Positions 28,041 to 31,010 of a stretch of DNA of 39,284 nt are shown in pieces. Each line of letters begins with the position of its first letter. Positions within the stretch are counted from its first letter, which is position 1. The DNA lies in assembly GCA_028698525.1 (NCBI GenBank), contig JAQVDB010000014.1:1-39284 (forward strand), read 5' to 3'. The notes beneath the pieces are model-generated. The model was not told the origin of the DNA and did not search any database. It saw only the letters and a program-made list of their open reading frames with translations. This DNA comes from Clostridia bacterium (GTDB lineage: Bacteria > Bacillota > Clostridia > JAQVDB01). A program made the translations under genes and the position numbers.

Positions 28041-28826
28041 ATGAATAATAAAAAAGCTGATATTGGTGTTTTTGGAGGTTCAGGATTTTATTCTTTTTTA
28101 GACGAAGTAGACGAGTTTTACATAAATACTCCATATGGCAATCCTAGTTCCAAGATTGCTTTAGCAGATATAAAAGGCAAAAAGGTTGCATTTTTACCTA
28201 GGCATGGCAAGGACCATCAATTTCCTCCCCATATGGTTCCATATAGGGCTAATATATATGCTATGAAAGAGTTGGGTGTAAAGGCGATAATTGCTCCAAC
28301 TGCGTCCGGCAGTCTAAAGCCTGATATTAAGCCTGGTGAATTTGTAGTATGTGACCAATTTGTAGATAGAACATATGATAGGAAATCCACATTTTTTGAT
28401 GGGCCTATAACTAAGCATATAAGTTCTGCTGATCCTTATTGTGAAGAATTGAGGAAAATTGCCATTCAAACAGCTAGAGGGTTAGATATATCAGTTCACG
28501 AAAAAGGTACAGTTGTGGTCGTTCAAGGTCCGAGATTTTCTACAAGGGCAGAAAGCCAATGGTTTACAAAGATGGGCTGGGATGTAGTTAATATGACTCA
28601 ATACCCTGAATGTATACTAGCAAAAGAGATGGGTATCTGTTATGTGAATATTTCATTGATAACAGATTATGATGCAGGGCTTGTAGGGCATGCCGATATA
28701 AAACCCGTTACCGAACAAGAAGTTTATAGGGTATTTAACGAGAATAACGAAAAAGTAAAAAAACTGATTTATACGATGATAGCAAAGATGGATGATGATT
28801 GGAGCTGTAAATGCAGTCAAGCATAA
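28041..28826 (+). CDS. mtnP: S-methyl-5'-thioadenosine phosphorylase
   Basis: 261 aa member of the purine nucleoside phosphorylase family 2 (MTAP-type). It splits methylthioadenosine with phosphate into adenine and methylthioribose-1-phosphate, salvaging the by-product of polyamine synthesis. Signatures are the N-terminal IGVFGGSGFYSFLD, FLPRHGKDHQFPPHMVPYRAN, APTASGSLKPDIKPGEFV, VQGPRFSTRAES and the substrate region NMTQYPECILAKEMGICYVNISLITDYDAG. The asparagine-to-base contacts and the phosphate site seem intact. AAAGGAGGATAAAGG precedes the ATG. A close relative, 6-oxopurine phosphorylase, is possible, as substrate choice in this family depends on a few residues. The gene stands alone. Confidence 0.9.
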   Translation: MNNKKADIGVFGGSGFYSFLDEVDEFYINTPYGNPSSKIALADIKGKKVAFLPRHGKDHQFPPHMVPYRANIYAMKELGVKAIIAPTASGSLKPDIKPGEFVVCDQFVDRTYDRKSTFFDGPITKHISSADPYCEELRKIAIQTARGLDISVHEKGTVVVVQGPRFSTRAESQWFTKMGWDVVNMTQYPECILAKEMGICYVNISLITDYDAGLVGHADIKPVTEQEVYRVFNENNEKVKKLIYTMIAKMDDDWSCKCSQA

Positions 28827-29029: not shown

Positions 29030-29061
29030 AAAATTATAATAAATTAGGGGGGCTGATAGCC

Positions 29062-29478
29062 ATGCTGTTTAGGAATTGTGCCGGTGGGGTGGTATTTTGT
29101 GGAGACAAGGTTTTGATTCTAAAAAATGAAAAAGAAGAATGGGTTTTGCCCAAGGGAGTAATTCGTAACGGTAATCTCTCGAGAGAAGTAGCTTTGCAGC
29201 GCGTCAAGAAAGAAGCTGGCGTAGATGCTAGTATTATTTCATCAGTGGGAGAAACAAGTTACGAATTTTTTTCTGTCACAAGACAGCAACCTGTATGCAA
29301 TCAGATAGTATGGTATTTGATGCACACACCTGATGAAACCTGTGATATAAGTGAAGAAGAAGATTTTTCCGATGGAGGATTTTATCCCATCGAACAGGCA
29401 CTCAAAATGATAACATATAGTCAGGATAAAGCGTTGGTGAGCCTATCCTATAAAAAGTACAAAGAGATCGCGGTGTAG
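29062..29478 (+). CDS. Nudix-fold protein with degenerate Nudix box
   Basis: 138 aa, about the size of a minimal Nudix protein. The fold is clear from CAGGVVF, EWVLPKGVI and the helix that follows. The Nudix box (G-x5-E-x7-R-E-U-x-E-E-x-G-U) lies at residues 32-54 but reads Gly32, Asn38, Gln46-Arg47, Val48, Lys50-Glu51, Gly53-Val54. Four of the five acid or arginine catalytic positions are therefore changed (Asn for Glu, Gln for Arg, Arg for Glu, Lys for Glu), and only one metal-ligand glutamate remains. It probably lacks normal hydrolase activity and may bind a nucleotide or RNA. ATG 29062 follows GGGGGG. A terminator and the yigZ-like gene follow. Confidence 0.82.
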   Translation: MLFRNCAGGVVFCGDKVLILKNEKEEWVLPKGVIRNGNLSREVALQRVKKEAGVDASIISSVGETSYEFFSVTRQQPVCNQIVWYLMHTPDETCDISEEEDFSDGGFYPIEQALKMITYSQDKALVSLSYKKYKEIAV

Positions 29479-29486
29479 ATATATGT

Positions 29487-29533
29487 TAAAAGAAGTAGTC
29501 GTACAATGACTGCTTCTTTTATAAATTTTTTTA
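29487..29533 (+). terminator. Terminator after the Nudix-fold gene
   Basis: AAAAGAAGTAGTC (29488-29500) pairs with GACTGCTTCTTTT (29508-29520) with one mismatch, followed by ATAAATTTTTTTA. It ends eight bases before the ribosome binding site of the next gene. Confidence 0.8.
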
Positions 29534-29551: not shown

Positions 29552-30187
29552 TTGAAAAAGGAATTTTATACAGTGGGGAAACGGGATACGGTAGAAATCG
29601 AAGTGAAAAAGTCAAGGTTTATAGCTAATGTAAGCAGTGAGAATACAGAACAAGGAGCTTTAGAATTTATTGATTATATAAAAAACAAACATAAGGATGC
29701 CACTCATAATGTCTACGGTTATTCAATTGGGACTGGTTCAGAGGTTCAAAGATTTGATGATGATGGAGAACCTAGCGGTACAGCAGGCATACCTGTGCTA
29801 GAAGTAATAAAGAATATGCAACTCAAAAATGTTGTAGTAGTAGTCACAAGGTATTTCGGTGGTACTTTATTGGGGGCAGGTGGTCTCATAAGGGCTTATA
29901 GTAAAAGTGCAAAATTAGGCATCGAGAAATGTGGTATTATCAAGAAGGTTCAAGCGCAAAAGATAAACTTTACCACCGATTATTCTTTTTTAGGTAAGGT
30001 GGAAAACTATTTAAAATCCAACGATATATCGATATTTAATATAGATTACAAGGATAGTGTAGCTTTGGAATGTGGAATTAAAAAGGAAATGTTGAAGAAG
30101 GTTATATCCGAGATAAAGGATATTACTAATAATAAAGTATCTATAGAAGTTATAGAGGACATTTATATAGATATTCCAATGGGATAA
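29552..30187 (+). CDS. YigZ/IMPACT (UPF0029) family protein
   Basis: 211 aa. The N-terminal UPF0029 domain carries the family patterns KKSRFIANV, DATHNVYGYSIG, QRFDDDGEPSGTAGIPVLEVI and VVVTRYFGGTLLGAGGLIRAYS. The C-terminal DUF1949-like domain (about 140-205) has a ferredoxin-like layout, similar to EF-G domain IV. The eukaryotic relative IMPACT regulates GCN2; bacterial roles are not established. The start is TTG 29552 with GGGGGAGG just upstream. It is followed by the YebC-family gene 91 bp downstream. Confidence 0.92.
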   Translation: MKKEFYTVGKRDTVEIEVKKSRFIANVSSENTEQGALEFIDYIKNKHKDATHNVYGYSIGTGSEVQRFDDDGEPSGTAGIPVLEVIKNMQLKNVVVVVTRYFGGTLLGAGGLIRAYSKSAKLGIEKCGIIKKVQAQKINFTTDYSFLGKVENYLKSNDISIFNIDYKDSVALECGIKKEMLKKVISEIKDITNNKVSIEVIEDIYIDIPMG

Positions 30188-30278: not shown

Positions 30279-31010
30279 ATGGCTGGACATTCGAAGTGGT
30301 CTAATATAAAACATAAAAAAGCGAAGGAAGACGCAAAAAGGGGAAAGATTTTTACTAAATTAGGAAGAGAAATAGCAGTTTCGGTAAAAGAAGGGGGTAG
30401 TGACCCTGAAACAAATCCTAGATTGAAGGATGTAATAGCCAAAGCGAGAGCAAATAATATGCCTAATGATAATATAGAACGATCTATAAAGAAGGCTGCC
30501 GGGGAATTGGATGATGTCAATTATGAGGAATTTATATATGAGGGTTATGGTCCTGGAGGTGCGGCAGTAATAGTTGAGATAATGACAGATAATAGAAACA
30601 GGACTGCAAGTGATGTAAGATATATATTTGACAAGAACGGAGGCAACTTAGGTGCTACCGGGTGCGTAGCTTGGATGTTTGACAGAAAAGGTGTCATTAT
30701 TATTCAGGACGATAAAGATATAGATGAAGATGATTTGATGCTGATGGCTATTGATGCGGGTGCTGAAGACTTTTCTCATGAAGCAGATATATACGAGATA
30801 TTGACTTCGCCTTCTGATTTTTCAAGTGTAAGAGAAGCATTAGAAAAAGAAGGCCTCAAATTTGAATCAGCACAAATAGAGATGGTTCCCCAAAACATGG
30901 TAAAACTAGAGGAGAATGATGGGAAAAAGATGGAGAAGCTGGTAGATATGTTAGAAGATAATGATGATGTTCAAAACATATACCACAATTGGGAGATTGA
31001 TGAGGCTTAA
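30279..31010 (+). CDS. YebC/TACO1 family protein
   Basis: 243 aa, full family length, with the diagnostic N-terminus [32 protein letters not shown] and the internal [18 protein letters not shown]-like segment ([19 protein letters not shown]). Members were long annotated as transcription regulators (PmpR); more recent work assigns YebC/TACO1 proteins to translation of proline-rich stretches. The three-domain layout is complete and the C-terminus is acidic ([23 protein letters not shown]). ATG 30279 follows GGGGGT. In many bacteria yebC neighbours ruvC; no ruvABC gene is present here. Confidence 0.95.

Follow-up and report, generated by a model that had tools for sequence, protein, structure and literature searches.

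Catalytic Nudix hydrolases, which cleave X-linked nucleoside diphosphates in a metal-dependent manner, have the Nudix box consensus GX5EX7REUXEEXGU. In the NrtR regulators, a C-terminal DNA-binding winged-helix domain follows the Nudix domain, and the inactive Nudix proteins that we can name are, to our knowledge, eukaryotic or fused regulators. That inactive Nudix proteins can act as readers is already known: in NUDT21/CFIm25, an inactive Nudix fold has been retained to read a ligand (PMC7705103). The Nudix superfamily also includes a protein of the mitochondrial ribosome, L46 (PMC12210691). Among the enzymes, NahA/YvcI cleaves (p)ppGpp, and HflX binds ppGpp (PMC7584652). In the open literature, which leaves most subscription journals uncovered, we found no paper on the Nudix family described below; an article matching both Nudix and YigZ (PMC5989533) was unrelated, as far as its excerpt goes.

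A maintained Nudix-fold protein with a degenerate box

We analyzed a stretch of 39,284 nucleotides from a Clostridia bacterium, hereafter the window, which encodes a small Nudix-fold protein. The gene and its signals comprise the following features:

29046..29052, + strand: ribosome binding site AGGGGGG, 9 nt before the ATG (read directly)
29062..29478, + strand: Nudix-fold protein with degenerate box, 138 aa, ATG start (open reading frame, Pfam and AlphaFold)
29155..29223, + strand: degenerate Nudix box, residues 32-54 (translation and alignment)
29200..29202, + strand: Arg47 codon, at the position of the first REUXEE Glu (118 of 120 family sequences have Arg or Lys here)
29487..29521, + strand: Nudix-yigZ intergenic stem-loop with T run, terminator-like (16-pair stem, fold z -4.9)

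Residues 32-54 of the protein read GVIRNGNLSREVALQRVKKEAGV. Here N38, Q46, R47 and K50 replace the E, R, E and E of the consensus and E51 is kept, such that the window protein has no intact GX5EX7REUXEEXGU box. The numbering of these five residues in the original prediction is right against the consensus. When aligned with normal-box relatives, the box helix is ungapped and A44, E51 and G53 line up, and the register of the box is therefore not in doubt. Membership in the Nudix superfamily is supported by both profile and predicted fold: Pfam NUDIX (PF00293) matches residues 7-120 (E 1.7e-8, 35 bits, cut-off 21.1), as it matches all 27 family members scanned. The protein also contains the W27-P30-K31-G32 motif common to Ap4A/Ap6A hydrolases. 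AlphaFold prediction, with the window protein and nine relatives, gave a pLDDT of 94.8 and a pTM of 0.87, and Foldseek and structural alignment revealed an intact predicted fold of the Ap4A-hydrolase type. The best solved match was the Ap6A hydrolase Ndx1 from Thermus (1vc8; Z 22.5, rmsd 1.2, 125 residues), followed by the Ap4A hydrolase of Aquifex, aq_158 (3i7u; Z 22.3, rmsd 1.7, 133 residues), which is also the closest solved sequence (E 4.6e-14). The bacterium's own genome holds five Nudix domains over cut-off, the window's included. Two of the other four have a strict normal box; the remaining two, fitting neither the strict nor the relaxed box pattern, were left out of the comparison.

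Judged from its sequence, the window gene looks selected. Because synonymous sites were saturated for NG86 dN/dS, we relied on codon-position counts only. Over 414 bases, the gene differs from the closest of the relatives compared (75% identity at the protein level; D38, R46, R47, E50) at 26, 19 and 77 first, second and third codon positions, and this third-position excess argues that the gene is not decayed. A decaying gene might have been suspected, given that erosion of the box has gone further in the window copy than in this closest relative, which keeps R46 and E50, and that extra copies in one taxonomic family (our label f53) have lost even the PKG motif. Together with the third-position excess, however, the lack of internal stop codons in any listed match from the class search described below, and the many members from different taxonomic families that share 50-75% identity with the window protein, make decay very improbable. 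As for the gene signals that had been proposed, a ribosome binding site and a terminator-like stem-loop are present as listed above, whereas the claimed promoter is at chance level, with 9 sigma-70-like matches against a mean of 9.1 in shuffles. Given the strong intrinsic-terminator-like hairpin that separates them, yigZ and the Nudix gene may well be transcribed apart in the window.

Arg or Lys replaces a catalytic Glu in nearly all family members

A search of 391 genomes of the window's class with the window protein returned some match in 125, with family members and ordinary Nudix proteins mixed. In an alignment, 98 distinct sequences fell into three groups: 73 core members, 8 divergent members and 17 sequences with a normal box. 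The core members reside in 66 genomes of 19 taxonomic families, and by our count six more genomes of the class have a divergent copy alone. When 398 genomes sampled from the phylum were searched with a profile, 104 gave a match at 1e-12; by our count, 50 of these (own genome included) scored at least 152 bits and the others at most 116. The family is phylum-wide: this search contributed 49 further genomes with family-level matches, 38 of which were fetched with flanks and tallied. Duplicate proteins were left out before counting, as were two genomes with a normal box (G391 and G734) from the family tally, while seven extra f53 copies and locus L084 entered the residue statistics and were kept out of the core gene-order tally.

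The f53 genomes concerned (L073, L075, L076, L078, L079, L082, L083) carry more degenerate copies with a changed PKG motif. Next to these copies lies a gene for signal peptidase I, and hflX and yigZ are often close by; two of the genomes hold a core copy elsewhere too. A link of the family to sporulation was considered and rejected: Spo0A_C is found in 307 of the 391 genomes, many of them without the family, family-positive f58/g97 genomes (G121, G145, G168, G189, G283) are not among the Spo0A_C matches, and f42 genomes match Spo0A_C weakly.

The residue statistics set the family apart at position 47. In all 17 normal-box sequences, E38, R46, E47, E50 and E51 are present (each 17/17). By comparison, the 73 core members have Arg (69), Lys (3) or Thr (1) at position 47, and E51 in all 73. 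In the comparison extended with sequences from the phylum search to 120 distinct family sequences, position 47 is R in 109, K in 9, T in 1, A in 1 and E in none, whereas all 19 non-family Nudix sequences compared, most of them YvcI-like, have E47. The exchange is accompanied by a second one, as Lys80 of the normal-box relatives is Asn in the family. The pair 47/80 is R/N in 109, K/N in 8, T/N in 1, A/T in 1 and K/D in 1 of the 120 family sequences, and E/K in 17 of the 19 non-family ones. Further residues are near-invariant in the family, namely R4, C6, N22, T65, E68, S71, R74 and N80, with T65 in 120/120, R4 in 119/120, E68 in 118/120 and R74 in 116/120. The other box positions vary: of the 119 sequences in the family tally, 39 have Glu at position 38, 38 have Arg at position 46 and 50 have Glu at position 50. 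N38, Q46 and K50 occur in only 11, 11 and 10 of 120 members. Of the four substitutions raised as possibly conserved, then, R47 (or Lys) is a family trait and N38, Q46 and K50 are not. Since the window protein alone among the 120 sequences combines N38, Q46, R47 and K50, it is an extreme case in a family whose members all lack the first Glu of REUXEE. The search for normal-box members in the same family yielded none with Glu at position 47 (0/120), and the proposal of a maintained Nudix-fold protein without most catalytic residues is supported.

In a tree of 67 sequences, the family together with L187 is split from the normal-box rows by one branch (support 95/89). As the tree is unrooted, loss of Glu is the presumed direction of change. 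Considering these sequence features, family members probably do not hydrolyze nucleoside diphosphates by the Nudix mechanism, and catalysis would have been lost. The proteins could alternatively be hydrolases with an altered metal site, in which E51, sometimes E50, and E68 bind metal and R47 binds the substrate phosphate. E51 and E68 are each retained in 117 of 119 sequences, a reduced metal site is conceivable because position 50 is still acidic in 55 of 120 members, and the structural neighbours include E. coli YmfB (4nfx), whose title refers to an 'atypical hydrolysis mechanism'. Yet the charge at a metal-ligand position is inverted in 118 of 120 members, and with Ile, Lys, Tyr or Leu at position 50 in 44 of 120, the box has no constant second ligand. 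On balance, we consider such an altered-site hydrolase unlikely.

The Nudix gene lies in a neighbourhood largely conserved within the class

The following genes flank the Nudix gene in the window:

28041-28826: methylthioadenosine phosphorylase gene, upstream of the Nudix gene (profile match)
29552..30187, + strand: yigZ (IMPACT family), TTG start (TIGR00257 over cut-off)
30279..31010, + strand: yebC/TACO1 family gene (profile match)

The YigZ- and YebC-family neighbours named in the original prediction are thus identified by profile, the former by TIGR00257 at 29552 and the latter at 30279, and the order with yigZ proved to be kept in the window's class. With loci L002-L010 left out of the gene-order tally, 54 of the 65 genomes whose sequence reaches far enough have yigZ on the same strand within 550 bp downstream, representing 17 of 19 families. 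The 11 exceptions without a near yigZ belong to f22 (6), f53 (2), f58 (2) and f7 (1, with yigZ 1.9 kb away). In several f42 genomes, the Nudix gene overlaps yigZ (-4 or -8 bp). Also downstream, 41 of 62 genomes of the class have yebC within 3 kb. Upstream, HflX, HPF or SerRS is encoded within 1.6 kb in 32 of 64 genomes and 9 of 19 families; within 800 bp, HflX is found in 13/64 (6 families), HPF in 15/64 (all f7) and SerRS in 2/64 (f84). The window's own genome (97% complete) has one HPF match over cut-off and no HflX match over the family cut-off. At f58 loci L063-L066 and L068-L070, a HEAT-repeat protein of ~225 aa is encoded directly upstream of the Nudix gene, and at L194 a gene for a ~225-aa HEAT-repeat protein lies directly upstream of yigZ, with the Nudix gene absent; no NCBIfam match was obtained for this protein.

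We compared these arrangements with 20 family-negative genomes, picked by us from different taxonomic families. There, hflX directly precedes yigZ in 8, and 4 have yebC in the 4 kb of downstream sequence covered. The hflX-yigZ neighbourhood, being adjacent in 8 of 20 such genomes, does not need the Nudix protein, and because the group exists in family-negative genomes, the Nudix gene either joined this group or was lost from it. The idea of yigZ as a dedicated partner of the Nudix protein is weakened by these data. Moreover, co-occurrence with YigZ is uninformative, as 369 of 391 genomes have YigZ, and the genome counts are not independent, since gene arrangements are inherited.

Outside the class the link is largely gone: 5 of 36 testable genomes have yigZ after the Nudix gene and 5 of 33 have HflX before it, each time in 2 families. 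Neighbours in other classes include genes for MiaB, spermidine synthase, agmatinase and MadB/MadC-like proteins. In some families YchF (NCBIfam: redox-regulated ATPase YchF) lies upstream; spermidine synthase or agmatinase lies downstream in several, and MiaB downstream in others. In the raw tally, translation-related genes recur as neighbours. The polyamine genes downstream in several families of other classes, together with the methylthioadenosine phosphorylase gene upstream in the window, would fit a non-ribosomal role such as one in nucleotide or polyamine metabolism. However, among the clustered neighbourhoods, no more than one besides the window contains the phosphorylase gene, and polyamine genes are absent from the 15 recurrent neighbour clusters examined in the window's class, rendering a non-ribosomal role quite unlikely.

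A candidate reader of nucleotides or RNA at the ribosome

Among the near-invariant residues are polar and charged ones that alignment and predicted model place on the strands and the helix lining the pocket of known Nudix enzymes. This predicted location speaks against a plain protein-docking scaffold that, like a ribosomal Nudix-fold protein, works without a small ligand. Such a scaffold would agree with neighbouring genes that act on ribosomes and with the placement of mitochondrial ribosomal protein L46 in the Nudix superfamily (PMC12210691), though we regard it as improbable, to the same degree as the altered-site hydrolase. The best reading, which we hold tentatively and stop short of calling probable, is that of a non-hydrolytic Nudix protein that reads a nucleotide or RNA and is linked to ribosome stress or hibernation. 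The gene order argues with moderate strength for the ribosome link. Weighing against this reading are the hflX-yigZ pairs of family-negative genomes, the rarity of yigZ and HflX as neighbours in other classes, the terminator-like hairpin before yigZ in the window, the lack of an HflX match over cut-off in the window's own genome, and the acid kept at position 50 by part of the family. Combining a charge-swapped catalytic residue with a ribosome-gene context, the family suggests a retired enzyme kept for another job.

Mechanistically, R47 would take the place of Mg2+ as a positive charge, and the old pocket may still hold a phosphate-bearing ligand, be it RNA or a nucleotide (Ap4A or an alarmone, for instance), which would not be cleaved. 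As gene order implies, the protein may work with ribosome stress and hibernation genes, with hflX or hpf upstream and yigZ and yebC downstream, and would probably serve as a ligand-dependent ribosome-associated adaptor. Given that HflX binds ppGpp and NahA/YvcI cleaves (p)ppGpp (PMC7584652), nucleotide or RNA reading at the ribosome is our best guess. A more far-reaching version, a dedicated bacterial receptor for stress nucleotides (Ap4A or alarmone) that has Arg for a Mg2+ ligand and controls ribosome splitting or hibernation with HflX/HPF, YigZ and YebC, appears decidedly doubtful.

A free-standing bacterial family in which the charge of a metal ligand is permanently inverted, spread over many taxonomic families, would show how a hydrolase turns into a reader. 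With it, the hflX-yigZ-yebC gene group gains another uncharacterised candidate. For YigZ itself, we know of no settled bacterial role, and YebC is now a recognized translation factor (PMC12234827). If our reading is true, the name 'NUDIX hydrolase' for these proteins misleads.

Comparison with known Nudix systems

The family resembles NUDT21/CFIm25 in its inactive-looking Nudix fold, but the latter has its own Pfam family, PF13869, and mitochondrial ribosomal protein L46 likewise belongs to a different one, PF11788. At E 0.001, the 27 scanned family members matched PF00293 only, with no match to PF13869 or PF11788. Unlike NrtR, the window protein has just 138 aa, and a single Nudix domain fills the model. 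The nearest normal-box sequences in the class are YvcI/NahA-type relatives with ~28-40% identity to the family, presumably NahA orthologues, as judged from their operon and the B. subtilis gene order. They differ from the family in having a normal box in 17/17, which the family lacks, and most lie in operons with YvcK and WhiA; clusters of these two genes occur only beside normal-box loci, and the family is not found in a yvcK-whiA operon. Finally, the Ap4A/Ap6A hydrolases (aq_158, 3i7u; Ndx1, 1vc8), which bind dinucleoside polyphosphates and cleave them asymmetrically, share the whole-length fold (Z 22.3-22.5) at 27-29% identity. In contrast to these enzymes, which have Lys or Arg at position 80, the family has Asn there and Arg or Lys for the first Glu of REUXEE, and the resemblance predicted by the model is one of fold only.
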